Origin: a virus
Strand: one strand, 5' to 3'
Virus record (IMG/VR): IMGVR_UViG_3300025120_000143
Span: 1-42,664 of that record
Length of the DNA stretch: 42,664 nucleotides
Part shown: positions 1 to 30,110 of the stretch, one piece after another
Numbering within the stretch: the stretch's first letter is position 1
How the letters are laid out: every line of letters starts with the position of its first letter
Notes under the pieces: generated by a model
What the model was told of the DNA's origin: nothing
Databases searched by the model: none
What the model saw: the letters and a program-made list of their open reading frames with translations, nothing else
Position numbers and translations under genes: made by a program

Positions 1-276
1 AAGCAAAGTATTGTGCCTTTGTGTATGATTGGCAACAAGGGTTTATATGTAAATGCTGAAGGAAAGTTTTATCCATGCTGTTGGACTGGATTGAGATATC
101 CACACAATAAAGACATATTCGATTACATAGACTTCAATAGGCCTTTGCCTAAAATTTTACAAGATCCAATGTGGAAAAAACTTATGCTAGATTTTAGTTA
201 TAATAAAGGCCCTCAAGAATGTTTTGAAAAATGCAGTGCGGCAAAATGGAATCTAGAACATGCTACCCAGTGGTAG
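1..276 (+). CDS. Radical SAM protein, C-terminal SPASM part (5' end cut by window)
   Basis: The frame is open from base 1, so only the last ~91 residues are seen and the true start lies outside; the GTG at 13 is probably internal. The fragment carries the cysteine pattern of a SPASM/twitch auxiliary Fe-S domain: a Cys in the PLCMIG segment, then a stretch of the 'G-K-F-Y-P-C-C-W' type, then CFEKC near the end. In this family these cysteines bind extra iron-sulfur clusters that support radical chemistry on peptides or small substrates. The CxxxCxxC radical SAM core would lie upstream and cannot be seen. The gene converges on the minus-strand SGNH gene and overlaps its end by 14 bases. Family assignment is fairly secure; substrate is unknown. 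Confidence 0.7.
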   Translation, partial: KQSIVPLCMIGNKGLYVNAEGKFYPCCWTGLRYPHNKDIFDYIDFNRPLPKILQDPMWKKLMLDFSYNKGPQECFEKCSAAKWNLEHATQW

Positions 277-1000
277 ATAAATTATCCTTAAAATTCAAAA
301 GTTTATCCAATTCATCTTTTGGCGGTTCTATATTAGATTGATACATAATATCTTTGACCCATTTGTAGTGTGCCAAAGGCAATGGATGTTCGTCACTGTC
401 AGCAAATTCATTTGGATATTCAGATTTTGCAAAGTCGTAAAGGCCTAGTTTATCCTTATAAAATATAAAACTGTTCCAATTTATTTGTTTATATAATGCT
501 AGGTGACCTGCACTCATTGTGTCTTTGTCATGTGAAAGTATGTTTGCCATATAACACATCATTTTGTATTCTATTTTGTGCTTGTCTAATAACAGTTGCG
601 TGAATAATATTTTTTCTAGCAATCTTATTTCGTTTTGTTTTTCATTTAAAAAATATCTTTGATAGTATTTGTGCTTGTCCCTATCAACATGTCCACCATA
701 ATATTGAAACCATTTCCAGTCCGGATCGTATGTACTCCATGTTGCGTCTTCCATGGTTTTGTCTCCTTGTGTGTCACTAATAACTTCGTACCTATTTGGT
801 CCGCTCCACATGATGTATACTTTTTTTATGTTTTTGTATTTTGATACTGAATTATAAACAGTTCTGCTGATTGTTTCGTTTGAACTTGCAGGATTGCCAA
901 GATTTATTATATGATCATCAGTCTCAAACCATTTAACAAAGTTAGGCCAAGATGCCCATTTATATTTTGTAAAACTACATCCTGCTGTTAAGATTGTCAT
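263..1000 (-). CDS. SGNH/GDSL-hydrolase-like protein
   Basis: A 245-aa protein with the SGNH layout. Block I is AGCSFT with the candidate nucleophile Ser9. A block II glycine lies in NLGNPASSNE (about 34-42), a block III-like WSGPNR follows at 65-70 (Asn69), and a C-terminal acidic/His motif SDEHP sits around 202-206. Family members are esterases, acyl- or acetyl-hydrolases, often acting on acylated sugars. No signal peptide or membrane segment is seen, so it should be cytosolic. It is the last gene of the minus-strand glycosyltransferase/radical SAM operon and overlaps the preceding SGNH gene by 26 bases. Activity on a glycan or acyl-modified product of that operon is inference. No clear Shine-Dalgarno precedes the ATG. 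Confidence 0.65.
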   Translation of the reverse strand: MTILTAGCSFTKYKWASWPNFVKWFETDDHIINLGNPASSNETISRTVYNSVSKYKNIKKVYIMWSGPNRYEVISDTQGDKTMEDATWSTYDPDWKWFQYYGGHVDRDKHKYYQRYFLNEKQNEIRLLEKILFTQLLLDKHKIEYKMMCYMANILSHDKDTMSAGHLALYKQINWNSFIFYKDKLGLYDFAKSEYPNEFADSDEHPLPLAHYKWVKDIMYQSNIEPPKDELDKLLNFKDNLSTTG

Positions 1001-1580
1001 AAATTTTTTGTGCCCAAGTTTTGTTTTGTAATTTTGTCATATGATTGCTTAAATTTATATCAGGCTCCACTTTGGCCTTCATATTTCCGTCCCATGAATG
1101 TGCCAAACAACTTTCATTAATAAATTTGCCTGTAGTCAACTTTAAATCCTTAGGTAGCATACTCCACATTTGTATTATATTACTACTGCTTTCGTATTTT
1201 TTTAAAACGTTTTGATCAAAGTGCTTTAAACTATATCTATAAGCAATATCGTCTTTGTTATAAAAACTTAGATATTTGTAATAATTTTCAGCCGCTTGCC
1301 AAATGTTTTCATCTGTGCCTTCAATTGGCTTGTTATTTGGTGTAAGGGGCAGTGTAGGGTGATATAATCTAGTTTCGTCAGTCCAACAAAAAACAAGATA
1401 ATCTGCAATATTGTTATCCTTTTGATCTTTTTCAAATTCAATGAATGTTGTCCAGATGCTACTTCCACCAATGCCAAAACGTGTTATTGAACTATATAAT
1501 TTTTCTGCCAATATAACACACCAACTGTCATCTCTATGACTTTGGCAAAAACTATCTCCATAGAATGCTATTGTCTTCAT
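975..1580 (-). CDS. SGNH/GDSL-hydrolase-like protein (second copy)
   Basis: A 201-aa protein starting MKTIAFYGDSF, a textbook block I (GDS) with Ser10 as the expected nucleophile. A glycine-rich block II (GIGGSS) lies at about 36-41, a block III-like segment FCWTDETRL at 64-72, and a late Asp/His pair (D174, H180) could complete the site. It is short but complete for a minimal SGNH fold. Its ATG overlaps the stop of the radical SAM gene (ATGA), indicating translational coupling. It resembles its downstream neighbour in architecture but not closely in sequence, so the pair is either an old duplication or two separate acquisitions. Substrate unknown; an O-acyl esterase or transferase role on a carbohydrate is plausible. 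Confidence 0.65.
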   Translation of the reverse strand: MKTIAFYGDSFCQSHRDDSWCVILAEKLYSSITRFGIGGSSIWTTFIEFEKDQKDNNIADYLVFCWTDETRLYHPTLPLTPNNKPIEGTDENIWQAAENYYKYLSFYNKDDIAYRYSLKHFDQNVLKKYESSSNIIQMWSMLPKDLKLTTGKFINESCLAHSWDGNMKAKVEPDINLSNHMTKLQNKTWAQKIYDNLNSRM

Positions 1581-2956
1581 GCTGATTTACACTCCTGCCA
1601 AAACTCTGTCATTTCAGGAAAAGTTTTCTCAAAACTTGTTCCACGTCTACGATCGTGTTCGTTAAAAAATGCGTAAAAATTCTTTTTTTGCTGTGCGTCA
1701 GCGTTATAATTTTTACGCCAATATGCTAAATTGCGAAGCATTTTTTGAATCTCAAAGTCTTTGAATACAGCGTACTCCGAATCTTTGTATACTCCTTCTT
1801 GAAACTTCTGCATCATTGTTATGTTGTCCTTGTGAATCTGCTGATAACTCTCTGACAACATAGTGATCTGTTGCCATGTAGGCTGTCTCAACAAAGGTAT
1901 ATCAAACCAAACTCTTTGATATGTGGTACTGTACCGCTGTCTCAACTGTCTAATGTAATCTAACAGTTTGTCTAGGCTAGTGACGCTGAGGTTGTTGTAT
2001 GTTATAATAAATGTCACACTGTTCCTTACAGGAATCCTATAAAGGAATTCTTCAACATTGTCTTGAAAATAGTTCCAATCTAAACCGTGGCGTATGTATT
2101 CTGCCTGCTTGCCAAATGCGTCTACCGATACAAATTGCATAAAATGTTCCACATGCTCATCTAAACAGATTCTTTTGACCTTGTCATAATATTTGTTTTT
2201 GAGTTTGCGATCCGGTGGACACATATTGCTTGTGACGTTGAGGTGTAGATCCTTTTTAGGATGGTCAATTACATAATCCAATACTCTATAAGTGTTTTTA
2301 TCCATCATTGGTTCTCCGCCAGTCATTCTAAAGTGTTTAAGATTTTTGTACAGTGTTGGCCACCACTTCCAAAAAGCAGTCACATAAGGATTGTCTTCTC
2401 TTGTGGGAATAGGTTGTCTTGAGCCTTGAAAATGCTCTGGAGCGTTGTGGGCCGGAGATGTGGGATATTGGCCATACCTGTCGATCTCCTTGGCCCACGT
2501 GGTCGAGAATTGTGGCGAACAATAACTGCACTTGAAATTACAAGCATGGTTAAAGTTTACTTCCACGTATCTCGGTGTCCATTCTGAGTCTATAGGTTTT
2601 CCAACAATTGACTCAAAATCTTGTACTGCCCAGGGTTCGCCTGAACGATAAATTCTATCTGATGTTCCACCGGTATCTTCTATTTTCCAACAATAACTGC
2701 AACCTTTGGGACGTTTGCCTTCCAACATCTGCTTTCGTTCCTCTAATTTTTGTGCTGTGTTGTGCAGTGCGGCAGGATTAGTTTTGATCTGTTCTGCGTC
2801 TATTTTGTGCAGTGGTGGATGATAACAACTGTTGGTCAACCCTGTGGTCAAATGCAAACTAACTTGATTCCATTTGGCCAAACACATGGAGGGGGACACA
2901 GTATCTAATTTCTTTTTGGCTTGATCAGCGTCTTTTTGATAATGACTAATTTTCAA
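1577..2956 (-). CDS. Radical SAM protein with twitch/SPASM-like features
   Basis: The core radical SAM motif CNFKCSYC (CxxxCxxC) binds the 4Fe-4S cluster that cleaves S-adenosylmethionine, and a following TGGEPMM segment is the GGE motif that binds the methionine moiety. Extra cysteines before the core (a Cys-His pair and GCSYCW) suggest further metal or cluster ligands. The frame is open up to an ATG at 3022, but that start overlaps the upstream gene by 77 bases and lacks a ribosome site. A TTG at 2956 has AGAGGAG nine bases upstream and reduces the overlap to 11 bases, so I prefer it (459 aa). It lies between a glycosyltransferase and an SGNH gene, so it may modify a sugar, peptide or lipid-linked substrate; the substrate is unknown. 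Confidence 0.8.
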   Translation of the reverse strand: MKISHYQKDADQAKKKLDTVSPSMCLAKWNQVSLHLTTGLTNSCYHPPLHKIDAEQIKTNPAALHNTAQKLEERKQMLEGKRPKGCSYCWKIEDTGGTSDRIYRSGEPWAVQDFESIVGKPIDSEWTPRYVEVNFNHACNFKCSYCSPQFSTTWAKEIDRYGQYPTSPAHNAPEHFQGSRQPIPTREDNPYVTAFWKWWPTLYKNLKHFRMTGGEPMMDKNTYRVLDYVIDHPKKDLHLNVTSNMCPPDRKLKNKYYDKVKRICLDEHVEHFMQFVSVDAFGKQAEYIRHGLDWNYFQDNVEEFLYRIPVRNSVTFIITYNNLSVTSLDKLLDYIRQLRQRYSTTYQRVWFDIPLLRQPTWQQITMLSESYQQIHKDNITMMQKFQEGVYKDSEYAVFKDFEIQKMLRNLAYWRKNYNADAQQKKNFYAFFNEHDRRRGTSFEKTFPEMTEFWQECKSA

Positions 2957-3833
2957 GATCTTGTACTCCTCTGTTTTTGTGTAGTGGTTGCGTAAATTTA
3001 AAAAACTTGCTGGCTCCAACATCTAAATTAGGAACGCTGAGCCCTAGTTTTTGTTCAATTGAGCCTTTGTATTCTTCTAGTTCTTTGTCCAAATGAGTTT
3101 TATTTAAAAAGCCAAAACTTCCTTCTACAGTTTCTAATTCTAAATCGCAAGATTCATTGTTTACTGATAGATCATAACAACCGGCTCTCGAACCTAGCAT
3201 GGCAAATTTTCCATGGTCAACATCTGAACCCACTGTCATCCACGTGGACAATTTTATAAGATTACTGTTGGCAATCTGCCTTTTAAATTGTGTGGGATCT
3301 ACTCTTTTTCCTCGGTCCATGGAAAGTTTCACACCTTCCCTGTATCCTGCAATAAATGCCTGTTTGGCTGATGAGTTGATTACACTAGTTGAGTAACAAT
3401 TATGTAAATTTGCGTGTGGCACTGTCCAACAAAAATCTTTTTTACTTTGTTCATTGACAGCATTTTCGTGTGTTTGCATTGATAGACAAGTGTCTTTATG
3501 CCAACCAACCAATCCGCCATTGCCGTAAACAAGTCCATTTACAATATTTTTTGCTCTCCATCTATGCACGTGCTTTGGGTTTGTTTTGCTCCAATCTAGT
3601 GTTTGTAGTAAAAATGTTTCGTCAATGATGTTGTCTCCATCTACTGATATAAAAAAATCTGTGTCTGCTTTCATGGCCGCGGCTTTATGTGCTGAATCAA
3701 ATCCTTTGACTCCGTGTACACGTTTGGCCCACGGTACCTTGTTTAACAGATCAGCGTAGTTTTCTTCACAGTTTGGTTCTTTGTAACTGATGAATACAAA
3801 GTCTAAATCTAAAATTTTTATTTTTTCTGCCAT
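2946..3833 (-). CDS. Glycosyltransferase, GT-A/GT2-like
   Basis: A 295-aa protein with a GT-A-type nucleotide-sugar fold. A hydrophobic first strand (DFVFISYKE) is followed by a conserved region and then VDGDN (Asp65-Gly-Asp67), a DxD motif expected to bind Mn2+ and the sugar-nucleotide diphosphate. Similar short glycosyltransferases occur in marine T4-like phage genomes. No signal peptide or transmembrane helix is visible. It overlaps the 102-aa gene upstream by 16 bases and the radical SAM gene downstream. It could glycosylate virion proteins, modified DNA bases or a host surface polymer; the sequence does not decide which. Donor and acceptor unknown. Confidence 0.65.
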   Translation of the reverse strand: MAEKIKILDLDFVFISYKEPNCEENYADLLNKVPWAKRVHGVKGFDSAHKAAAMKADTDFFISVDGDNIIDETFLLQTLDWSKTNPKHVHRWRAKNIVNGLVYGNGGLVGWHKDTCLSMQTHENAVNEQSKKDFCWTVPHANLHNCYSTSVINSSAKQAFIAGYREGVKLSMDRGKRVDPTQFKRQIANSNLIKLSTWMTVGSDVDHGKFAMLGSRAGCYDLSVNNESCDLELETVEGSFGFLNKTHLDKELEEYKGSIEQKLGLSVPNLDVGASKFFKFTQPLHKNRGVQDLEN

Positions 3834-4126
3834 GTAAATGCCTTGTTTCCTTCTTCAGTTGGCCAAAATGGATTGTTTTCGTAAAATTTTAATCCGTTAT
3901 CTGTTTGCACCAATTGTGTTTGTTGCTGTTCTTTAGGAGTGTAAGGTCTCTTGCAAACTATTGATCCATTTGGTCCTTTTTGACAAAAGTAGTTTTTTTC
4001 TCCTACTTTCATTATTTCAAGTTTTTGTTCGAGAGACACTTGAATGCTTTTACCTTGAATGTTTACAAACTGTTTTTTGTTTGGTTTATTTTTAAACTTT
4101 TCGATGGCTTCAAAAAATCCTGGCAT
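3818..4126 (-). CDS. Hypothetical protein, 102 aa
   Basis: I do not recognise this protein. It is basic at the start (MPGFFEAIEKFKNKPNKKQF), has two cysteines (CQKG and VCKRP, about 14 residues apart) in a central segment, and ends in an aromatic and Gln-rich stretch. No membrane segment or signal peptide is seen. It overlaps the glycosyltransferase upstream by 17 bases and the one downstream by 16 bases, so it is co-translated with them. A GGAGAAC Shine-Dalgarno-like sequence sits four bases before the ATG. A small accessory or carrier role for the glycosyltransferases is possible but unsupported beyond position. Confidence 0.6.
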   Translation of the reverse strand: MPGFFEAIEKFKNKPNKKQFVNIQGKSIQVSLEQKLEIMKVGEKNYFCQKGPNGSIVCKRPYTPKEQQQTQLVQTDNGLKFYENNPFWPTEEGNKAFTWQKK

Positions 4127-4907
4127 CTAAGTTCTCCATTGTTTCTTTTTCATAGTAATGCCAAATTCTTGACTGTTTGTATCCACCAAGATAATAAGCA
4201 TCTCCTTGTTTGTATGTTTGCAGAAAATCATTATTGTTATATAAAGGTGTTAATCCGTTTACATCATTTTTGTTGTGTACAAATTTAAACCACTCGTAAT
4301 CAACCTTTAAAATTTCAAAAGGATCAAACATTTTATTAGCCAATGCATAAATTACATCTGTTGTAGGCTCTTCGTCAAAACAATTAATGAGACAGTTGTC
4401 TCGAACCTGTGGCCATTTTTCAGTAAGCCTTTTACATAATAAGTAATATTTCATTGCCCAAATGCTTTTTCTAAAATAAGTCAATCCACTGTATATGTTT
4501 GGTAAATTGTTTTCTATAAAAAGTTTTCTATATTTTGTATTCTTTACAATGTTATCTTTGTAATTTCTACAATCATAAGAATGGACTATGTCCCATTGGT
4601 ACAGATCATTCCACCACCAGTCTGTGTTTTGTGTTAACACCATGTCTGCTTCAAGTTTGATAGTGTGCGTAAATGGGGACAATTTAAAAACTTGCCATTC
4701 CTTATCAAATTTACCTTGACTATTTCCTTCAAACAATATTACATGGTCAACGTTTTTTACTGCATTGGGGATTTGTAGCATATGGTTGTCAGTTATTATA
4801 CAAGTTTTGTTGTGTTTGTTATGTTTTTTAATACTGGCCGCAAGTGTTTTACTGGCTTTAATGTATTTTTCTCCAAATGCAAACCAAACGTAACCCCTAT
4901 CCGACAC
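4110..4907 (-). CDS. Glycosyltransferase-like protein, GT-A fold
   Basis: A protein of about 265 aa with the layout of short GT-A transferases. A first strand (GYVWFAFGEKYIKAS) leads to a second (TCIITD), then a DxD-like KLEADMV segment near residue 87, where metal and sugar nucleotide would bind, and then a Trp/Tyr-rich acceptor half. The reading frame extends to a TTG at 4913. However, AAGGAG is only one base from that codon, whereas a GTG at 4907 has it at seven bases, so 4907 is the better start. It follows another glycosyltransferase with an 11-base overlap. The DxD is imperfect (EAD), so donor binding may differ. Specificity unknown. Confidence 0.55.
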   Translation of the reverse strand: MSDRGYVWFAFGEKYIKASKTLAASIKKHNKHNKTCIITDNHMLQIPNAVKNVDHVILFEGNSQGKFDKEWQVFKLSPFTHTIKLEADMVLTQNTDWWWNDLYQWDIVHSYDCRNYKDNIVKNTKYRKLFIENNLPNIYSGLTYFRKSIWAMKYYLLCKRLTEKWPQVRDNCLINCFDEEPTTDVIYALANKMFDPFEILKVDYEWFKFVHNKNDVNGLTPLYNNNDFLQTYKQGDAYYLGGYKQSRIWHYYEKETMENLDARIF

Positions 4908-5664
4908 TGGCAAACTCCTTGTCTAACACATGAACATCTGTGTCTGTAATAACATTTACTTTTTTATTGTATTTGTAGACAACGCTGGTTTCTGTTGTTT
5001 CTAACACATCAAATTCATGCGGTAACATGTTCATGGGTGTAGGAATAAACTTTGGTGTTGCTATTTGTCCATCTAATTGATGTAAAGCAATTGCAAAAGC
5101 ATAATCATTTCTATAATTTTTAAATTTTATCCTATAGAGATTTCTGAAATGTTCGTAATTGTTTTGAACATGTTTAATCATATCAAAAATCATTTTTACA
5201 CGTTCAGTTTTTTTAAACATAACGACAGTTGCCCATACAATTGGCAAAGTTGCTTCTAGTTTTCCAATAATTTTGTTTACACCTGATATATCATGTACCT
5301 TGTCATGTAGTAAAAAGTCATGTTCTGACTTAGAAAGTTCTAAAAGGTTTGAAGTAAAGCACAAATAATCACAGTCTAACAACAAAGTTGTATCATACAG
5401 TGAATGATCATAGGCATTGGCCCGTTCCATGTTGTACCAAGGAACATTTTGTCCTCTGTAAAATCTAAAATTTTTGGTCTGTTGCTTGATCAATATGTAT
5501 GTTACTCCAGCAAATTGAGGAAAGTGCCTATGTGTCTCATGATCTGTGACAACAGTTATTGGCAACTTTAAATTTTTTTGGATTAGCTCTATAGATTTTA
5601 AAGCCAATTTGTGATAAGCAGTTACCGGAGTGTCAAAACAATACAGTAATACGCCAGTTGTCAT
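4897..5664 (-). CDS. Glycosyltransferase-like protein, GT-A fold
   Basis: A 255-aa protein opening with a strand GVLLYCFDTP, a second strand LPITVVTD and then LLLDCDYLCF (Asp97-Cys-Asp99), a DxD motif in the usual place for metal and nucleotide-sugar binding. This order fits the GT-A glycosyltransferase superfamily, close to GT8/GT2-like short enzymes; the exact family cannot be fixed by eye. The start is clear: AAAGGAG precedes the ATG, which overlaps the previous stop codon by one base (TAATG), so the two are translationally coupled. It is the first of three glycosyltransferases in the operon; together they could build a short oligosaccharide. Confidence 0.6.
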   Translation of the reverse strand: MTTGVLLYCFDTPVTAYHKLALKSIELIQKNLKLPITVVTDHETHRHFPQFAGVTYILIKQQTKNFRFYRGQNVPWYNMERANAYDHSLYDTTLLLDCDYLCFTSNLLELSKSEHDFLLHDKVHDISGVNKIIGKLEATLPIVWATVVMFKKTERVKMIFDMIKHVQNNYEHFRNLYRIKFKNYRNDYAFAIALHQLDGQIATPKFIPTPMNMLPHEFDVLETTETSVVYKYNKKVNVITDTDVHVLDKEFASVG

Positions 5665-5978
5665 TACGTTCTCCTTTGTAGAGAATCATGCAATTGGCTT
5701 AGAGTGTTTAAGGTTTCTTGATTTCTTTCTATAAGTTTTTTTAAGAAATCATCAGGATCTTTTACCAAACAAGGGTTTTCATTTGTGTCTAAAACATAAA
5801 ATTCTTTTGCGTGTGCTTTAAGTGTTGACACTGTGTTGATTGTTTGTGCATCGGCTCTAAACAATCGTCCATTGTAGGCCATAATTTGTCTAGAACGCAT
5901 CTTTTCCAAACTGTTGCGTTTAGTAACAGTTATATCGTGTGCTAGATCCGAGTATTTTTTAAGTTTGCCAATATCCAT
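5664..5978 (-). CDS. Hypothetical protein, 104 aa, first gene of glycosyltransferase operon
   Basis: I do not recognise this protein. It is a small, charged, mostly helical-looking protein: a Lys/Arg-rich N-terminus, a central YNGRLFRADAQT segment, and a C-terminal helix (about 75-104) with coiled-coil-like spacing (FLKKLIERNQETLNTLSQL). It has no signal peptide or membrane helix. It is the promoter-proximal gene of the accessory operon. Its ATG sits six bases after a TATAAT box, so its mRNA may be leaderless, and it overlaps the next glycosyltransferase start by one base. It could be a regulator or scaffold, but nothing in the sequence shows which. Confidence 0.6.
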   Translation of the reverse strand: MDIGKLKKYSDLAHDITVTKRNSLEKMRSRQIMAYNGRLFRADAQTINTVSTLKAHAKEFYVLDTNENPCLVKDPDDFLKKLIERNQETLNTLSQLHDSLQRRT

Positions 5979-5984
5979 AACTCA

Positions 5985-6013
5985 ATTATAACAATAATTA
6001 TGGAGTTTTTCAA
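5985..6013 (-). promoter_or_regulatory. Sigma-70-type promoter for the glycosyltransferase operon
   Basis: On the minus strand TTGAAA (6008-6013) and TATAAT (5985-5990) are separated by exactly 17 bases, matching the host housekeeping promoter consensus at 11 of 12 positions. Transcription should begin six or seven bases after the -10 box, which is the A of the ATG at 5978, predicting a leaderless or nearly leaderless transcript. It lies in the only gap (5979-6028) between the late tail operon and the accessory operon, so the latter probably has its own early or middle expression. Confidence 0.6.
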
Positions 6014-6028
6014 GTGGTAAAAAATTAA

Positions 6029-7015
6029 TTAATCGCCGTTTACAATGGCGTTTGATACTGATGCAACTGATATAGTGTTGTATACCTGTGCAAGACCTTC
6101 TGAGGTATTCATATCAATAGTTCTGAAACTGAAATCTGTTGGTCCAACTGCTTCTTCTTCTATGGCTATAGAACTTAAATTGCCTGAAGTGTAATCTGTT
6201 CTTGTTGTTTCGTTTTGTAACAGTGAACATTTGACAGTTATAACATTTCCTGTGTTGCCTCTGCCATCTCCATGTGCACCACCTGATTTCATTTCAACTT
6301 TAACTTGAATATCACCTGAGTAATCACCTGAGTCCTCAGTTAAAAGAATAACAGTTTGATATGACGTTGTGAGATCAAAGTAACCAAGAGCAAGTCCGTT
6401 TGTAGTCAATGTTTCGCCTGATCCTGATCTTGTTGACACTGTTGCACCTATATCTAAATTTCCTAGTGCGGCCAGTAGTGCATCAACTGATGCATCTTTG
6501 CCTGTGTCGTTTGTTTTGGTGTTTGTGAAATTAATTCTTAATTTTCCGCCTGCATTGAAAAAGAATCTTGCTTCGTCTCCGCCTGCAAATGTAAATGATG
6601 CTTCACAAATGTGTGATGTGTCATACACTGCTGATGCAACTAGTGATAAATCTTCTGAGCCTGCCGCAAGTGCTGTTGCACTTGTTGATCCACCTTTTAC
6701 TTCATTCTCAAGTGAAAGTAAATCTGCCGCTAGTGCTGAAACCACTGCAATAGTGTTACCTGCTGTTCGAGCAGTTGTAGATGATAATGAGTCGTTAGTA
6801 TGGTTAGCAATATTGTCCATTGCTGTAAAAAGTGAATTCCATTGTGCGGCTGAGACTGTGTCGCCTGCACCTACCGTTGCTAATGCAGTTTGTCCTAGTC
6901 CAACATTTCCTGTTCCTGTCCCCATTATAGAGTTGATTCCAAATGGTGTGGAACTATTATTAACAAACTTGTTATATTCGTCGTCTAAAATTTTATCACC
7001 TGCTACATATGCCAT
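6029..7015 (-). CDS. Virion structural protein, marine T4-like phage type
   Basis: A 328-aa protein with an N-terminal segment (MAYVAGDKILDDEYNKFVN, later a D-x-x-x-AAQWNSLF type stretch at about 55-65). That pattern resembles structural proteins I know from cyanophage and pelagiphage myovirus tail regions. The rest is Ser/Thr/Gly-rich and beta-strand-like (tandem short strands, KVEMKSGG), as expected for a trimeric fibre or fibre-associated protein. It is the last gene of the late tail operon, three bases after the neighbouring fibre gene. No enzymatic motif is visible. A role at the tail tip or fibres is inferred from position and composition. Confidence 0.6.
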   Translation of the reverse strand: MAYVAGDKILDDEYNKFVNNSSTPFGINSIMGTGTGNVGLGQTALATVGAGDTVSAAQWNSLFTAMDNIANHTNDSLSSTTARTAGNTIAVVSALAADLLSLENEVKGGSTSATALAAGSEDLSLVASAVYDTSHICEASFTFAGGDEARFFFNAGGKLRINFTNTKTNDTGKDASVDALLAALGNLDIGATVSTRSGSGETLTTNGLALGYFDLTTSYQTVILLTEDSGDYSGDIQVKVEMKSGGAHGDGRGNTGNVITVKCSLLQNETTRTDYTSGNLSSIAIEEEAVGPTDFSFRTIDMNTSEGLAQVYNTISVASVSNAIVNGD

Positions 7016-7018
7016 GTT

Positions 7019-8620
7019 TTACTTAACTCCTATTACACATTCAGTTAGTTCTGTTATACTGCTATATTTAGTCTTCAGCAGTCTACCCAGCACAGTAAAC
7101 GCTGAGCAATTTTCTAATTCGACTACCTTTGCCTCACCATTTCCTGCTGATACTATACGTTGACCTGCATGTCCTGTTCCTTGTAATTTGACTCTTACTC
7201 TTCCTTTAAGAGCAACCATTGGATGTGAATCATCGTTGCCTGCATCTCTATTCATTAAAAACGCTGGTTTTTCAGATACTACTCCAAAAACTCTTGTAGA
7301 ATTTTCACTATCACAAATTGTTATCTCTTTTGCACCACCTAGTTCTACAACGTCTCCTACCTCCATAGGTACATCTGCTTCGTATCGTTCTGCTAAGTCA
7401 GCGTATTGGGCTGATGTAGATGTTGCGTGTACAACATTTGCTCTTAAATCCACCAATGTTGGTGCTGATAATTCAGTGCCTCCACCTGATTTGAATGCTG
7501 TCCAGGCGCCTCCTGCATTTCCAAAAGTAGTTGTTCCGTCATCTGCAAATGATTCGTCCCATACCCAGTATAAATCTTGTTCAGTGGCAGAAGATGTTGC
7601 TCCTCTGTTGGCTTTAATTCCTGTAAAAGTAGGCATACTAGATGCCGCTGAAATATTTCTGTTAAGTTCTATGATGTTATCTTCTACTGAAAGAGTTGTT
7701 GTGTTTACAATTGTTTGTGTGCCTTCCACATCTAAATTGCCAACTCGTAAATTTTCTATTCTACCAGTTGATCCTTTTATTCTTAGTGCTTCTGTTGTGG
7801 TTCCACCATCGTTTACTGTAAAAATAATATCTTTGTCTTGAGTAGTTTGTGCTATTGTAAAGTCATCTGAGCTGAGAGTCATTCTTACATCTGATCCTAT
7901 ACCCAGTGTCAAACCACCATCATTTAATACACCTAAAGTGCCTGAAGTAGTATCATTGGCATTGGATCTTAAGTAGTTTGCCGCGGCAATTCCACCTAAT
8001 GCATCTGAATTTGTTACGGTGCCTGTCAATTTGTTGTCTGCAATTGCAGTTGACATGGTTATACCTTTGCTTATTGTAGAAAATCCTGAAATAGAAGTGC
8101 CTGGTGTAAATGCATCTGCACTTACAATTGCAACGTTAGTATCATTAGTCACAAGTCTTAAAATAGATTTTTCTACACCAACATTGTCTTCTATTGCTTC
8201 TGAAACAACCTGTGTTACTCCTGATCCAGAAACTGACGTTGGTCCTATCAAAGTCCATGATGTTCCACCGTAAACATACAATTGGTTGTTTAGTGTGTCA
8301 TACCATGTGTCACCTGTTACAGCATTTGTGGGCTGACTAGTTGAATTAGTTGAACTGCCTACTGGTTTAAATTTTGTTCCTGTGTAGACATTAAGTTGAT
8401 TGTTAAGTGAATCGTACCAAATTTGTCCTTTTATTTTATTTGCTGGTTCAGATGTGTTTGCAAAGTTTTCTAAAATTTTAACAAAGTTTTCGTTTAATCT
8501 TTCACCAAATCCTGCATAACCTTTTCCAATTAACGTAATGTCCAAAGTAGTGGTATCAATTGTACCATCTGCTAGTACTTTTAATACTGTTCCTACTGTG
8601 TTGTTAATTGTGTATGACAT
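7019..8620 (-). CDS. Tail fibre-like structural protein, paralogue 1
   Basis: A 533-aa protein sharing its first ~110 residues with two genes upstream (10246 and 11722). Shared marks are a YTIN start, a GK-Y-G-GE stretch, NFVKILENFANTS-like text, WYD..NNQL..Y.GT repeats and a FKP motif. This block is probably a virion-attachment domain. The middle has beta-rich repeats, including AAANYLRSNANDTT, also in paralogue 3. The C-terminal ~130 residues (from YADLAERYEADV, with VFGVVSEKPAFLMN and ALKGRVRVK) resemble the peptidase-G2-like intramolecular chaperone domain of phage fibres, which is self-cleaved in some phages. It overlaps nothing and follows the 58-aa gene. Receptor binding is inferred. 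Confidence 0.65.
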   Translation of the reverse strand: MSYTINNTVGTVLKVLADGTIDTTTLDITLIGKGYAGFGERLNENFVKILENFANTSEPANKIKGQIWYDSLNNQLNVYTGTKFKPVGSSTNSTSQPTNAVTGDTWYDTLNNQLYVYGGTSWTLIGPTSVSGSGVTQVVSEAIEDNVGVEKSILRLVTNDTNVAIVSADAFTPGTSISGFSTISKGITMSTAIADNKLTGTVTNSDALGGIAAANYLRSNANDTTSGTLGVLNDGGLTLGIGSDVRMTLSSDDFTIAQTTQDKDIIFTVNDGGTTTEALRIKGSTGRIENLRVGNLDVEGTQTIVNTTTLSVEDNIIELNRNISAASSMPTFTGIKANRGATSSATEQDLYWVWDESFADDGTTTFGNAGGAWTAFKSGGGTELSAPTLVDLRANVVHATSTSAQYADLAERYEADVPMEVGDVVELGGAKEITICDSENSTRVFGVVSEKPAFLMNRDAGNDDSHPMVALKGRVRVKLQGTGHAGQRIVSAGNGEAKVVELENCSAFTVLGRLLKTKYSSITELTECVIGVK

Positions 8621-8622
8621 GC

Positions 8623-8799
8623 TTAATTTGATCCGTTGTCTCTAACAAAAGTCAAAAACGATACATCTCCCAATAGTTTTATCAAAATAGTGGCTGTTTC
8701 CGGAGTCAAAACTGCATCAATTTTAGCAATTTCTTCCTCGGTCAACACACTTTGATAATTGTTGTTAATGTAATCACTTACTTCTTGTTTAGTTGCCAT
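8623..8799 (-). CDS. Small hypothetical protein, 58 aa
   Basis: A short frame starting MATKQEVSDYINNNYQ and ending FVRDNGSN, in the otherwise empty 210-base gap between two fibre genes. The start has a GGAGA ribosome site seven bases upstream and the stop is two bases before the next ATG, which fits a real gene in this packed operon. The protein is acidic and mainly helical: a first helix of about 15 residues, then TEEEIAKIDAVLT and a hydrophobic ATILIKLLGDVSFLTFV stretch, too polar overall to be a confident membrane segment. A small fibre-assembly chaperone would suit the location, but that is inference only. Confidence 0.65.
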   Translation of the reverse strand: MATKQEVSDYINNNYQSVLTEEEIAKIDAVLTPETATILIKLLGDVSFLTFVRDNGSN

Positions 8800-8829
8800 T
8801 TTGTTTCTCCATATATAATTATCCGTTTA

Positions 8830-10239
8830 TTAGTTTATTTCAGGATCATAAACCTCTAACCATTCACCAAATTTGTGTTCAACAAATGGTCTTACAGTTA
8901 ATCCTACCACAAAACAGAAGGATTCGCCTATCCATCTTGTGAATTTTCCTAAAATATCTCCCTTGGATCGTTTGCCCATTTGGTATGCTAGTTCATTTGC
9001 TCTTGCTTGAGCAAGTACCTTTATAACATCAATGACTAGTCCGCCAAACCATGATTTTGTTTCAGTTGAATTTTGCATGTACTGTACCAAAGGTATGGCC
9101 CAAAACCAATAGCCAATCTTGGTTGTTCTGTTCAAGTGTTGTATTGAAAATTCTGTATCTACTTGCAGATCTTGTAATGAGAATAGGCCTTTGTTTTGTA
9201 ACCATGTACAGATTACTCTACCTCCGCCTCCACCGCCACCTGATCCAGGCGTTCCAGATGATGAACCTCCTGCACTGTCACCAAAACCTGCCGCAGTTGA
9301 TGTAAAATCTATACCTGAATTAAAAATTGGTTTCCAATTGCCGTCAAATTTAAAATATGCCCCTGAAACTTTTTTCCATCTGTCACTTATTTTAGCGTAT
9401 ATCGCATTAACACGTTTCCATGCACCGCCAGTTTTAACAAAAGCGTCAGGACTGATTGTGAAAATTATTACTGCTAATCCGTTGCCGCCCGATTGTTGTA
9501 CACTTCCACCTCTGCCAACACCTGATTGATATCTTGAGTCTCCTGTACCTCCTGGTGTCTGCCCGGAACTTGTTGCAGATGATCCACTGCTTGGAACTAA
9601 ATTACTGCCTGAATGTCCTCCTGCACCACCTGTATCTCCAGAGCCTCCTGAACCTCCTTTACCGCCAGAGTCTCCTCCACCGCCGGCTCCACCACCTCCA
9701 CCGTCTCCTGAGTGATTGGCTCCATTTTCCCCTAAAGTTGGGGGTGAGTTTGTTGTTGCTGAATTTGAATTGATACCTGCTGAACCTCGACCGTCTCTAC
9801 CGTCTGAACCTCCAGCACCACCTCCACCGGCAATGGCAATTTCTGCTCCGTCTATTGTAATAACTGTGGCACCGCCTCCGCCACCACCTGCACCTGATGC
9901 ACCACGTGGACCTGCTGACCCACCTCGACCACCTGAATAACCTGTTAAACTTTTTCCGTTGGCTCCACCTGCGGCTCCTCCAGCGTGTGTGGTACCACCT
10001 GCACCACCGCCACCTACTGCTACTCTCATAGTTTTGTTAGCATATGCTACAAGTGAAAATGATGTTTTTGAAACGTGCTGACTTCCTGCTCCAACTTGTC
10101 CAGGTCCGGCTTGGTCGCCACCACCGCCACCACCGCCACCGCCCCATAGATAAAGATCCATAGAAGTTGTGCCTGCAGGAATTGTTAATGCCTGAGTTGT
10201 TCCTGAGTATATAAATGTTTTAGTTTCGGTAGTTGCCAT
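8830..10239 (-). CDS. Glycine-rich tail fibre/adhesin-like protein
   Basis: A 469-aa protein. Residues 1-32 form a short strand-rich start (ETKTFIYSGTTQALTIPAGT). About 33-265 are extremely glycine-rich, with GGGG runs separated by short sequences, and a second glycine run lies near 325-345. Such regions resemble the polyglycine-II sandwich of phage tip adhesins of the T4-like gp38/S16 kind, where loops set host specificity. The C-terminal ~120 residues (from VICTWLQNKGLF to EVYDPEIN) form a distinct hydrophobic, Trp-rich helical domain, with a W-x-x-PLV-Y-x-stretch and RANELAYQMGKR. It lies among the fibre paralogues in the late operon, so receptor binding is likely but inferred. Confidence 0.65.
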   Translation of the reverse strand: MATTETKTFIYSGTTQALTIPAGTTSMDLYLWGGGGGGGGGDQAGPGQVGAGSQHVSKTSFSLVAYANKTMRVAVGGGGAGGTTHAGGAAGGANGKSLTGYSGGRGGSAGPRGASGAGGGGGGATVITIDGAEIAIAGGGGAGGSDGRDGRGSAGINSNSATTNSPPTLGENGANHSGDGGGGGAGGGGDSGGKGGSGGSGDTGGAGGHSGSNLVPSSGSSATSSGQTPGGTGDSRYQSGVGRGGSVQQSGGNGLAVIIFTISPDAFVKTGGAWKRVNAIYAKISDRWKKVSGAYFKFDGNWKPIFNSGIDFTSTAAGFGDSAGGSSSGTPGSGGGGGGGRVICTWLQNKGLFSLQDLQVDTEFSIQHLNRTTKIGYWFWAIPLVQYMQNSTETKSWFGGLVIDVIKVLAQARANELAYQMGKRSKGDILGKFTRWIGESFCFVVGLTVRPFVEHKFGEWLEVYDPEIN

Positions 10240-10245
10240 TTGGGA

Positions 10246-11712
10246 TTATGCCTCCCTTACGAACCAAAGATCTCCGTTGCTACCTTGACCGCTAGTAGGT
10301 GCTGAAGTCTCAACGTACCTGTTACCTGCTATGCTGTTGCTACTGTCATCACTTATGACTGAACCGCCCCATAGTTTCAGTGACTTTTGCACCTGTCCTA
10401 TGCTTGGCACAGTCTTTGTAGATGCCGACGTTGACGATGTGATGTCAGATCCAACTGCGACCAATGTCACCGAATCCATTGTCAGTCCACCTGCCGATGA
10501 TGCCTTAAGCACTTTGCTGTGGTTTGCACCACCATCGTCTGTTGCATCTGCTAATCTTATAACTTGTGAAAATGATCCTGTAACACCTGCACTCCAAAAA
10601 CTTTCAGAGGTATCCCAAAAAATTCTTGCTTCTCCGGATGCCTTTTCAACAATAAGTCCACCATCTACATCAGATGCGTTTCCTTCGTTGACTCCTATGA
10701 ACGCATCAACATAAGTTGAAACATCAACAGATGATTTGTCATATGATCCTGTAATTGTAAGATTTCCTGTAATTGTTGTATTACCTGTTAGTGTGATATT
10801 TCCTGTAGTACCAGTAAATGCTAAAGGTATTTTAGTTGTGCCACCGTCATTGATAGTAAAACTTAAATTTTTGTCCTGCCTAGTCTGTGCTACTGTGACG
10901 TCACCCGAACTTGCAGTTATTGATAATTCTTGCTCATCTCCAACAATCAATCCAGCATCTGCATCAATTGTCAATGCTCCTGTTGTTGTGTCTGCGGCGT
11001 CTGCTCTTAAAAAATTACCTCCAGCAATCACTGTGGCTGAAGTGTTTGTATTGCCACTTACATCTACAGCAGATGCTTGACTTGAATTACCTGAGAAAGA
11101 AGCACTCAATGAACTATTAAGTGTAATACCCGAAGCGACTGTTGCAAAGCCGTTTGTTTTTATTGCTGTGGATGCATCTGGTGTGTTTGCATCTGGAGTA
11201 AACGCTTCTTTTGATAAAATAGCAACTCTAACGTTGCCCACAAACATTGACGCAATAACCTTGTTGACACTAGAAGCAGTAACAGTTTCTATTTTCCAAC
11301 CTGAAAGTGTTTGACCTTTAGTGTAAACTGGCCCTACTAATTGAAATGCAGATTGTGTGCCTGAATAAACATACAACTGATCATCATCTGTGTCTAACCA
11401 TAAATCACCTGCTGATGGTGCTGTTGGTGCTGAAGATTGTGCCCTTGAACCTCCAGTTGGTTTAAACGAGGTACCGTCATAAACTTTTAATTGACTGGCT
11501 GTTTTGTCATACCAAAGTTCACCTTCTAAAGGCGCTGTTGGCGCTGACGTACTTGCTGAATGTTCTAATAATTTAATTAAGTTTTCTTGTAATAATTCGC
11601 CCCAACCAGAATAACTTTTACCAAACAGAGTCAAAGATGTAGTATTGTCAATTGTACCATCTGTGATAGTAGTTACTGTTGCTCCGTCTGTTTTATTGAT
11701 TGTGTATGGCAT
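10246..11712 (-). CDS. Tail fibre-like structural protein, paralogue 2
   Basis: A 488-aa protein with the same ~110-residue N-terminal module as its neighbours (YTINKTDG, then TLFGKSYSGWGE, LWYD, FKPTGG). The central part is repetitive and Thr/Ser/Gly-rich, with NITLTGNTTITGNLTITGS beta-helix-like repeats near residues 305-325. Unlike paralogues 1 and 3 it lacks the peptidase-G2-like C-terminus and ends with a different tail (DLWFVREA). It is therefore a mosaic relative: common anchor, different distal part. It sits six bases from the glycine-rich gene and nine bases from paralogue 3. A fibre or short-spike role is inferred. Confidence 0.65.
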   Translation of the reverse strand: MPYTINKTDGATVTTITDGTIDNTTSLTLFGKSYSGWGELLQENLIKLLEHSASTSAPTAPLEGELWYDKTASQLKVYDGTSFKPTGGSRAQSSAPTAPSAGDLWLDTDDDQLYVYSGTQSAFQLVGPVYTKGQTLSGWKIETVTASSVNKVIASMFVGNVRVAILSKEAFTPDANTPDASTAIKTNGFATVASGITLNSSLSASFSGNSSQASAVDVSGNTNTSATVIAGGNFLRADAADTTTGALTIDADAGLIVGDEQELSITASSGDVTVAQTRQDKNLSFTINDGGTTKIPLAFTGTTGNITLTGNTTITGNLTITGSYDKSSVDVSTYVDAFIGVNEGNASDVDGGLIVEKASGEARIFWDTSESFWSAGVTGSFSQVIRLADATDDGGANHSKVLKASSAGGLTMDSVTLVAVGSDITSSTSASTKTVPSIGQVQKSLKLWGGSVISDDSSNSIAGNRYVETSAPTSGQGSNGDLWFVREA

Positions 11713-11721
11713 TTTCTATAT

Positions 11722-13212
11722 TTAACACCTTCCCACTACAATATCGATCGTGCCTATTTCTTCCGAACTGTAGTCTTCTAATGCTTTTCCTATAATTGTT
11801 CCTGGGGTTGGGTCAGATATTTTTTTAGCCACCCCTGGAAAATTATTATGTGTTGCTAACATATCACCTTTTGTGATGTATCCTACAACTTTACATTTTA
11901 CTTTTCCTAAAAGTGCAACTGGCAATCCGTTGGCTTTTGAATTCATTAAGTATGCTGGATTTTCACTTATAACTCCTGCTACTCGTGTGTCGTTGCCTCC
12001 ATTGCATTGTGTAATTTCTTTTTCTCCGCCAAACACTACAACAGTACCAGCGTCATATTTGCCGTCTGATTCATATACCTCTGCCAAGTCAGCGTATTGT
12101 GCTGAAGTTGCTTTGGCGTAAACTACATTGTATCCTAATGAAGCACTACCAATATTATATGTAGTATTTGATACAGGCAGTATGTTAAAACTGTTTAAGT
12201 TTCCACTCATTGTCAAGGTACTAAATGCACTTGTCCCTGAACTTGTTACATTACCTGTAACGTTCCCTGTAAGTGCTCCTGCAAAAGTTGTTGCTGTTGC
12301 TGTGCCTACTACTTGTAATTTTGTTGAAGGAGTTGTAGTACCTATTCCAATTCTTGCTTCACCTCCATCGATTGTCATTACAGTTGTGGTTGTGCCACCA
12401 TCATTTACTTTAAATGTAATATCTGAATTTGAAATAACATTTGAAACAATTGCACCTGTGCCGTCAACAGTGATACTTAGATCACTATCAGCGCCTACTG
12501 TCAATCCTGAGTCATTGACAATACCTAAAGTGCCAGTGGTTGTGTCATTGGCATTTGATCTTAGATAGTTTGCCGCGGCAACTCCGCCAAGTTTGTCTGC
12601 ATCTGTAGCGTTACCTGCAAATTTTAAATCTGAAATTGCTGTTGAAAGAGTTATACCTTTTGTAATTGATGCAAATCCAGAGATTGATGATTTTGGAGTA
12701 AAACTATCTTCTGAAATTATTGCTATTAGATTTCCATCGTTGTACCAATATGTTACATTTTGTGTTGTATCTGTTGAATCAGCAATGGCGGTATAAACAA
12801 ATCCGTTTAATGTTCCAGTTGAAGAAGGTGGACCAACTAATACGTTAGATGTTCCATTATAAAAATATAATTGTTGAGTGTCAGAATCAATCCAAAGATC
12901 TCCAGTGACTTGTCCTGTAGGTTGATCAGCCTGATATTCAGCACCACTGACAGGTTTAAATGAACCGTCATATATTTTTAGTTTACTGTTTGTTTCATCG
13001 TACCACAATTGTCCTTTAATTGGTTTTGATGGAGCAGATGTATTAGAAAAGTTTTCTAAAATAGCCAAAAAGTTTTCGTTGATTACTTCGCCATATCCGT
13101 CATACCCTTTACCTACAAACGAAAGATCAGTTTGGGTGTTAAGTACAGAATCCTGTACAGTGTACGCATTTGGACTTGCTGAACTGTTAGTTTTGTTTAC
13201 TGTGTATGCCAT
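11722..13212 (-). CDS. Tail fibre-like structural protein, paralogue 3
   Basis: A 496-aa protein with the shared N-terminal module (YTVNKTNSS, SFVGKGYDGYGE, QLWYDETNSK, FKPVSG). The middle carries AAANYLRSNANDTTTGTLG, nearly the same as in paralogue 1, and later short beta repeats (TGNVTGNVTSSG). The C-terminus has the same peptidase-G2-like block as paralogue 1 (YADLAEVYESDG, TRVAGVISENPAYLMN, ALLGKVKCKVVG), so these two share both ends while their central sequences differ. It lies three bases after the 236-aa gene. Probably a trimeric fibre protein with a C-terminal folding or self-processing domain; whether cleavage occurs is unknown. Confidence 0.65.
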   Translation of the reverse strand: MAYTVNKTNSSASPNAYTVQDSVLNTQTDLSFVGKGYDGYGEVINENFLAILENFSNTSAPSKPIKGQLWYDETNSKLKIYDGSFKPVSGAEYQADQPTGQVTGDLWIDSDTQQLYFYNGTSNVLVGPPSSTGTLNGFVYTAIADSTDTTQNVTYWYNDGNLIAIISEDSFTPKSSISGFASITKGITLSTAISDLKFAGNATDADKLGGVAAANYLRSNANDTTTGTLGIVNDSGLTVGADSDLSITVDGTGAIVSNVISNSDITFKVNDGGTTTTVMTIDGGEARIGIGTTTPSTKLQVVGTATATTFAGALTGNVTGNVTSSGTSAFSTLTMSGNLNSFNILPVSNTTYNIGSASLGYNVVYAKATSAQYADLAEVYESDGKYDAGTVVVFGGEKEITQCNGGNDTRVAGVISENPAYLMNSKANGLPVALLGKVKCKVVGYITKGDMLATHNNFPGVAKKISDPTPGTIIGKALEDYSSEEIGTIDIVVGRC

Positions 13213-13215
13213 TCA

Positions 13216-13926
13216 TTAACTCGTTACTGTTGTTCCTGTTATGGGTGTATCATTATACGATGTTAAACTTTGTATTCTTAAAGTATAATCAATCTGTATT
13301 AATCTGTTCAAACTTTTTTGCACAGGGTGGAATATAACGTGTGTCAACAGTTTATTAGTTGATCCGTTTTCAGTGCCTTCCCATGACTTTAATCCAAGTT
13401 CATCAAAAACATAGTCTCCATCAAATTTTGTTGTATTATCAAATGCCTGTTGACCTGTTGGTTCTCCATAATCTAAAGTACATGTTACAACTATGTCGGT
13501 GTACTTGTTTCCAGCAGTGTGTCTTACTTCCATTTTGTTACGTGATGTGTCTTTGTTAGTTGATGAGCTATCATCTACAACTTTATAATACGTTTGATTA
13601 TACAAGGTAGCATTAGTGCCTGTTGAGTTTGGTGTCAAATATGTGATTACTCCTGTGGTGTCAACTGTTGTTCCACCATTACCAAAAGCCATTTCATGTA
13701 CAAAACCTGTTGTTTTGTTTGCTAACGAATTGGCTAACGCTGTACTCATATTCTCATAGTGTATAGCATTTCTTTTATCTACAATCACTTCACCTGTTTC
13801 TGGATCCCAGATTTTGATGTGTCCTTGCATCATAACGCCTGACTTGTCATCAGGTTTTTTATTAGAATTTTCTTGCTTATTTTCTGTTTCTTCTTGTTGC
13901 ATCATGTTGTATTTATTCTGGTGCAT
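13216..13926 (-). CDS. Virion structural protein, 236 aa
   Basis: A conserved-looking structural protein of marine T4-like myoviruses. After a charged, Gln/Asn-rich N-terminal tail (1-30), it has [20 protein letters not shown] and NAIHYENMS (about 33-65), then a beta-rich body and YTLRIQSL near the end. The ATG at 13926 is supported by AGGAGA eight bases upstream, in spite of a 14-base overlap with the giant gene; an internal MM (13905) would be the alternative. Its place between the giant baseplate-associated gene and the fibres suggests a connector or fibre-base protein. No enzymatic motif is seen; the role is inferred from position. Confidence 0.6.
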
Positions 13927-30102: not shown

Positions 30103-30110
30103 TATTTATG
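30103..30110 (-). promoter_or_regulatory. Possible late promoter before gp6
   Basis: The minus-strand sequence CATAAATA differs by one base from the late consensus and lies in the 43-base gap between gp25 and gp6, 16 bases before the gp6 ATG. It could add late transcription for gp6 and the giant gene inside the long operon. AT-rich sequence gives such boxes by chance, so confidence is limited. Confidence 0.4.

Follow-up and report, generated by a model that had tools for sequence, protein, structure and literature searches.

Gene content of the cassette

The window analysed here, the whole of a single 42.7-kb IMG/VR record from a virus (IMGVR_UViG_3300025120_000143, 42,664 nucleotides), carries on its minus strand at positions 263–5978 a cassette of eight open reading frames (ORFs) in which all neighbouring pairs overlap, by 1–77 nt. 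In order of transcription these are sm2, the glycosyltransferase (GT) genes GTc and GTb, sm1, a third glycosyltransferase gene (GTa), the radical SAM gene rSAM1, SGNH2 and SGNH1, and they follow fib1 (6029–7015, minus strand), the last fibre-region protein ahead of the cassette. The 77-nt overlap, between rSAM1 and GTa, hinges on use of the first ATG as the start, and conservation of rSAM1 begins near residue 26. A scan with rSAM1 gave 140 relatives in IMG/VR, and in 53 of the 59 close loci the series fib2-fib1-sm2-GTc-GTb-sm1-GTa-rSAM1 was whole, with the order fixed in all 53. The eight overlapping genes named in a preliminary description of this DNA are all present as ORFs, and their conserved order in relatives excludes chance.

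No Pfam or NCBIfam glycosyltransferase model matched the window's GTa, GTb or GTc, nothing significant was found with Pfam GT models for any of the 25 and 23 members of the GTc and GTb families, and profile searches against PDB sequences returned nothing useful for these three proteins, SGNH1, SGNH2 or rSAM1. The AlphaFold model of GTc (4897–5664, minus strand; 255 aa; pLDDT 90.6), searched against the PDB with Foldseek, matched LgtC, GlyE, UGGT, LARGE1 and glycogenin at E ~1e-5 and probability 1.0, with moderate TM-scores of 0.4–0.5. Its residues D97-x-D99, D243-x-H245 and K249 are invariant, with the DxD pair unchanged in 25 sequences, and the protein models as GT8-like; we describe it as working like a GT8 enzyme, not as a member of that family, because it has no significant match to a Pfam glycosyltransferase model. 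GTb (4110–4913, minus strand; 267 aa) is related to GTc by profile homology (hhalign probability 97.4% over 180 columns), retains invariant E88-x-D90, H252-Y253 and K256, and matches PHROG 1903, for which no function is annotated (E=2e-7). GTa (2946–3833, minus strand; 295 aa; AlphaFold pLDDT 90.3) is probably a GT-A transferase: D65-G66-D67-N68 is invariant in a 23-row alignment, and Foldseek returned SunS/ThuS, WrtF and K4CP from the PDB at E 5e-4 to 2e-3, the best of these a weak match (E 5e-4, probability 0.96, TM ~0.33), along with viral structures including the S-SRM01 glycosyltransferase. Profile comparison showed no homology between GTa and GTc, and among Pfam models of any kind none matched the window's GTa. 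The earlier claim of three GT-A-like transferases is supported by fold for GTc, through homology to GTc for GTb, and more weakly, by the DGDN motif and weaker fold matches, for GTa, but the GT family models remain silent.

The assignment of rSAM1 (1577–3022, minus strand; 481 aa) as a radical SAM enzyme was confirmed, and it is of the N-terminal-twitch type: it scores 333.5 bits against a cut-off of 170 with the NCBIfam model N_Twi_rSAM (NF033640, residues 43–474), and all seven cysteines, those of the cluster motif C161-x3-C165-x2-C168 together with C47, C66, C108 and C111, are invariant in 13 diverse sequences. SGNH2 (975–1580, minus strand; 201 aa) and SGNH1 (263–1000, minus strand; 245 aa) are SGNH-like and putatively hydrolases. 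SGNH1 matches Pfam DUF6071 (31.3 bits, cut-off 27), with a Ser block of GCSFT type in 11 of 13 aligned rows (GHCSA in two paralogues) and invariant N41 and H205. For SGNH2 there was no Pfam, PHROG or NCBIfam match; G8-D9-S10, G39 and H180 are invariant in its alignment, and the Asp three residues before the His is not conserved. The two had been called SGNH-hydrolase-like, which their Ser and His motifs support at the motif level only. Of the small proteins, sm2 (5664–5978, minus strand; 104 aa), the first cassette gene, is conserved and aligns at the same place in 57 of the 59 close relatives; no Pfam family fits it, and a suspected likeness to a DUF4376-like fibre-assembly domain was dropped for lack of Pfam support. 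Between GTb and GTa, sm1 (3818–4126, minus strand; 102 aa) is present in 55 of the 59 and evolves fast (mean pairwise identity 39%), its position in many divergent loci being taken by other small or larger ORFs. No transmembrane segments were detected in the cassette proteins, the highest 19-residue hydropathy being 1.59.

Conservation of the triad and the longer cluster in relatives

We found the GTc-GTb-GTa triad in one order and on one strand in 181 of 181 fetched loci, including those in which GTc has only 25–37% identity, and the triad order was kept down to 25–40% identity. A further scan used the structural protein at 13216–13926 as query, to avoid anchoring bias; among the loci so anchored with at least 9.5 kb beyond the anchor (n = 59), GTc was present in 41 and all three GTs in 33. 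Apparent absence of the GTs from 25 of 67 structural-gene-anchored loci proved to be partly an effect of the flank limit: when 22 of those contigs, seemingly without GTc, were rescanned over their whole length, GTa was found in 11, and the other 11 were mostly short fragments, with one contig of 167.5 kb that lacks GTa. The triad is common, not universal, in this phage group. Co-occurrence holds in relatives, where all 53 complete series stand in order beside the fibre genes, and the GT and radical SAM motifs are invariant; neither condition proposed as a refutation, separate occurrence or eroded active sites, counted against the gene set.

Past rSAM1 the close loci run on along the cassette strand with rSAM2 (56 of 59), rSAM3 (53), rSAM4 (50), rSAM5 (46), SGNH3 (44), a carbamoyltransferase (38) and a GNAT gene (34); because some loci stop short, these counts are minimum values. 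Longer clusters add an NDP-sugar epimerase, a GTa-like protein (GTd), a DegT aminotransferase and a UDP-GlcNAc 3-dehydrogenase-like enzyme, and they terminate at convergent core genes. The window's eight genes are the truncated head of such a cluster, the contig stopping 262 bases past the last cassette gene. SGNH1 and SGNH2 were found in 15 and 16 of the 59 close loci and never together, whereas the window carries both. The proposal that the eight genes form a complete tailoring path is not supported by this comparison, given the much longer cluster of relatives and the optional, mutually exclusive SGNH1 and SGNH2 there. Converging on SGNH1, a plus-strand ORF at 13–276 runs off the contig start; it is a C-terminal SPASM fragment of another radical SAM gene (Pfam SPASM E=1.3e-5), with 72% and 69% identity to the C-termini of complete radical SAM proteins in two relatives (L018 and L027). 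This fragment opposes the cassette and those relatives lie on the cassette strand, which may reflect a true inversion or an assembly end effect. In another relative (L046), a gene for alternative oxidase (AOX; 14527–15204, Pfam AOX E=9e-79) lies between cassette radical SAM genes, and AOX was seen in 3 of the 59 loci.

Both rSAM1 and the rSAM2–5 of relatives score above the NF033640 cut-off, a model for a subfamily without an assigned reaction whose cellular relatives found here are mostly from Bdellovibrionota. The pattern scan for rSAM1 relatives covers close relatives only. The cellular ones, mostly at 33–52% identity, are found mainly in Bdellovibrionota assemblies. In some of these, radical SAM genes stand in tandem arrays that lack these GTs, so that the radical SAM set seems able to function on its own. 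Three such assemblies, Bdellovibrionota-type or unassigned bacterial (L254, L288 and L290), carry tandem arrays of N-twitch relatives of rSAM1–5 and no phage GTs. Four hits at 72–73% identity in other metagenome-assembled genomes are probably phage contigs that were mis-binned; the fibre genes that accompany them are the same.

Radical SAM enzymes of the SPASM/twitch type often work on peptides. It is conceivable, though we consider it unlikely, that the N-twitch enzymes modify sm1, sm2 or a virion protein and that the GTs glycosylate it, the product resembling a ribosomally synthesised and post-translationally modified peptide (RiPP) or a glycopeptide. Besides the tendency of the family towards peptides, two small proteins are encoded amid the enzymes, and at the same locus Sinorhizobium phage Phosso and Agrobacterium phage Atu_ph07 carry other radical SAM genes with SPASM domains, most similar to those of peptide maturases; but sm1 and sm2 have neither a repeated or Cys-rich core nor a recognisable leader, the sequence of sm1 is not conserved in divergent loci, and peptide-maturase models fall far below their cut-offs for rSAM1–5. 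After a fibre gene and beside their SPASM radical SAM genes, Phosso (L291, 24318–25238) and Atu_ph07 (L292, 25068–25958) each encode a ~300-aa protein ending in CHxSCHASCHxSRSRR, a motif suggestive of RiPP-type modification, here carried by a larger phage protein. Candidates for a Cys/His motif of this type in the aquatic loci were noise only, mostly on the wrong strand.

Phage glycosyltransferases are known to glycosylate DNA bases, and DNA was among the targets first suggested for this cassette. Hypermodification, in which the GTs would glycosylate modified bases, has this precedent (also in PMC12619734) and relatives encode queuosine-type genes elsewhere (L082), but no thymidylate synthase-like or nucleotide kinase partner is encoded by the cassette or by those longer clusters that were read, the fold is GT8-like, and the genes are tightly linked to fibres instead of replication genes. 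With no base-modifying partner enzymes and no support within the cassette, we regard this role as highly improbable. The L082 genes themselves, QueE-like and GTP-cyclohydrolase-like ORFs read from sequence at 12049–12936 and nearby, suggest that these phages modify their DNA with 7-deazaguanine by genes separate from the cassette.

Upstream along the direction of transcription, fibre-like proteins occupy 6029–13212, followed by the structural-region protein used as an anchor above (236 aa, PHROG 11259) and then by a 4210-aa virion protein and T4-type baseplate genes; genes like gp55, gp47 and gp46 lie on the strand opposite the cassette. One fibre-region protein (8830–10239) has a long glycine-rich stretch and in this resembles T4-like phage adhesins that are rich in glycine. 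The named phages with the nearest baseplate proteins are jumbo myoviruses: the PA5oct group, Phosso and Salicola phage SCTP-2. A cyanophage origin was considered and set aside, psbA not being found in the 13 contigs searched.

The cassette promoter and joint exchange with the fibre tip

Immediately ahead of the cassette lies a sigma70-type promoter (5985–6013, minus strand), with TTGAAA at 6013–6008, a 17-nt spacer containing CCATAATTA, and TATAAT at 5990–5985, which agrees with the consensus at 11 of 12 positions and stands 6 nt ahead of the sm2 ATG. Across relatives it takes the form TTGann-N17-TATAAT: of 44 distinct upstream regions, 33 have a site with at least 10 of 12 matches, versus 1.4 expected from shuffles, and the distance of 6 nt is identical in 36. 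In 92 divergent regions, 29 sites with at least 11 of 12 matches fall 300–428 nt before GTc, at the place of the first cassette gene, versus 0–3 in other intervals. No comparable promoter was seen before the fibre or GT genes, and rSAM3 and rSAM5 have weaker position-conserved sites within overlapping coding sequence. Late-type sequences, TATAAATA and CATAAATA, both of the form (C/T)ATAAATA, stand at 30103 and 35962 before the baseplate operons, and the window is otherwise poor in HATAAATA (3 sites versus 13.4 expected). From this arrangement we would predict that host sigma70 transcribes the cassette independently of the virion operon, probably at an earlier stage, and that the message is nearly leaderless. 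The genes had been described as made together, which probably holds within the cassette, but they are not simply made with the fibres because the cassette has its own sigma70-type promoter.

Other sequences at or resembling this site were also noted. A near-palindrome around the -10 box (5979–6005 in the window, and in relatives) changes in step between two types of locus (AACTGTATAATACAGTT; ACCATAATTATTGTATAATTGTGGT), which suggests an operator. Non-virion genes of L082 and L083 have similar sites a short way ahead of their start codons, and one of these sites shares the CCATAATTA spacer element. A NATAAATR sequence before fib1 (42 of 57) was dropped as evidence of a late promoter because it lies inside the coding sequence for a conserved KDKYN of fib2.

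Correlation of identity matrices placed the genes in two groups, one of fib1, sm2, GTc and GTb (rho 0.67–0.75, with sm1 at 0.51–0.61) and the other of fib2, GTa, rSAM1 and rSAM2 (rho 0.60–0.80), such that fib1 correlates at 0.71 with GTc but at only 0.47 with its neighbour fib2. We also sorted the loci into two types by the sequence around the -10 box and compared identity within and between types: the difference was 0.09–0.17 for fib1, sm2, GTc and GTb, 0.06 for sm1, and 0.00–0.02 for fib2, fib3, GTa and the radical SAM genes. Windowed identity placed the start of the exchange signal at about residue 101 of fib1 and its end before GTa. The identity grouping and the type signal together indicate that distal fib1 and two of the GTs are exchanged jointly, the distal two thirds of fib1 and sm2-GTc-GTb-sm1 forming one allelic block between conserved flanks. 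Such joint exchange fits decoration of the fibre, or a receptor-reading tip paired with receptor-modifying enzymes, with plain linkage as a third possibility.

If linkage were the whole explanation, the region would be a freely variable island whose place and joint exchange reflect recombination between conserved flanks only. The exchange boundaries do lie in conserved sequence (the fib1 N-terminus and GTa) and the content of the distal cluster varies, but the order of the GTs is fixed across all fetched loci despite their divergence, their catalytic residues are invariant and the promoter is conserved, which argues for selection on the unit and makes this explanation improbable.

Decoration of the virion is the principal rival, and a possible one, though we rate it below modification of the host surface. 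Here GTc, GTb and GTa would glycosylate the fib1 tip or another fibre, and the radical SAM and SGNH-like proteins would tailor the glycan, with a change in adsorption, stability or recognition as the outcome. Consistent with this, the triad stands behind the fibre genes in a single order in all 181 loci, fib1 from about residue 101 is exchanged jointly with GTc, GTb and sm2, GlyE, glycogenin and SunS, which glycosylate proteins, are among the fold matches, and virion glycosylation is established in mycobacteriophages (Freeman 2023, as cited in PMC12619734). The cassette nevertheless has a separate, non-late promoter, even if early expression is compatible with virion targets, and the sugar-nucleotide gene set of relatives resembles that of surface polysaccharide loci.

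Predicted role and comparison with known systems

We tentatively favour an early- or middle-expressed cassette of large aquatic T4-like phages that modifies a host-surface glycan and is matched to the fibre tip. We prefer this to glycosylation of the fibre because the promoter is separate and not of late type, the fold is GT8-like, and the longer clusters encode sugar-nucleotide and decorating enzymes. Host RNA polymerase would transcribe the cassette ahead of the late virion operon, and GTc, GTb and GTa, working at the cytoplasmic side, would attach sugars to a lipid-linked or core glycan of the host. rSAM1, joined in relatives by rSAM2–5, may chemically change the sugar or a protein partner, an SGNH-like protein may attach or remove an acyl group, and the carbamoyltransferase, epimerase, aminotransferase and acetyltransferase of the longer clusters could make or finish the sugar. 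A surface changed in this way would block competing phages and spare released virions from loss on infected cells (receptor masking or superinfection exclusion), and we propose this as the reason why a single allele carries both the recognising tip and the modifying enzymes. Also counted in favour of host-surface modification are the predicted GTc fold, nearest to GT8 enzymes including the lipopolysaccharide (LPS) enzyme LgtC, the absence of transmembrane segments in the cassette proteins, and the allelic block of distal fib1 with sm2-GTc-GTb-sm1; published readings of similar clusters lean the same way (PMC7029224, PMC7824862).

Several points weigh against modification of the host surface. 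A promoter-like sequence is no proof of early transcription, the allelic block could be due to linkage alone, and the place right after the fibres in every triad locus is predicted by fibre decoration as well. Some of the best fold matches (GlyE, glycogenin, SunS and UGGT) act on proteins, and a polyprenol-sugar transferase, a flippase and a polymerase are all absent from the cassette. Nearly all cellular relatives of rSAM1 found are in Bdellovibrionota, some in arrays free of the GTs. A more specific form of the proposal is more doubtful: in large aquatic lytic phages, the late fibre tip and the early GTs that write the glycan it reads would be a matched pair and a single exchangeable allele, the tip with GTc and GTb serving as an inherited self-recognition module that marks the phage's own infected cells and the radical SAM row adding novel glycan chemistry. 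If this were true, that row would represent chemistry not known on phage-made glycans.

In gtrABC-type seroconversion by temperate phages, phage-encoded glycosyl transfer alters the host surface. The cassette differs in having no membrane protein at all, neither a flippase nor membrane-bound transferases, and in not being in a prophage setting. For pelagimyophages, Zaragoza-Solas et al. (2020, PMC7029224) described a host recognition cluster (HRC), a hypervariable region downstream of VrlC in marine T4-like phages that holds fibre genes, glycosyltransferases (GT8 being the most represented) and radical SAM cassettes, and proposed that it modifies the host O-chain. The window shares the order of baseplate wedge, 4210-aa structural protein (which would correspond to VrlC), fibres, GTs and radical SAM genes. 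The HRC, however, was termed non-syntenic, whereas here the GT triad is fixed in order, has its own promoter and is exchanged jointly with the fibre tip. The HRC belongs to T4-like phages of SAR11; the present phage may differ in this, its baseplate protein being matched, among named phages, by jumbo phages that infect other hosts.

Radical SAM genes in number have also been reported before: Nishimura et al. (2017, PMC5332604) presented one 183-kb marine T4-like genome with 12 of them, which are discussed there as part of Fe-S metabolism; the section consulted describes neither a linkage to GTs and fibres nor an operon structure. The LPS- or capsule-like clusters of jumbo cyanophages (Iyer et al. 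2021, PMC7824862) combine GTs with sugar-modifying enzymes, in some cases carbamoyltransferases, and were proposed to preempt other phages; they are described as sporadic and polymorphic, and the term radical SAM is absent from that paper. Four core GT orthogroups occur in another aquatic jumbo lineage (PMC12619734). The preliminary description held that no described phage system has exactly this set, which needs qualifying: the HRC and the genome with 12 radical SAM genes were already published, but no description of the ordered triad, its promoter or the joint exchange was found in the literature searched, the coverage of which was incomplete.

Earlier work noted GT and radical SAM genes in marine host-recognition regions, yet described them as variable and left them unexplained. 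New here are the conserved sigma70-type promoter of the cassette and the joint exchange of distal fib1 with sm2-GTc-GTb-sm1. Together with the fixed triad, these would make the cassette a defined unit, one that predicts early timing, a glycan shared by the tip and the enzymes, and exclusion of competitors, and the up to five N-twitch radical SAM members in a conserved operon, with relatives in predatory bacteria, offer a handle on the substrate.

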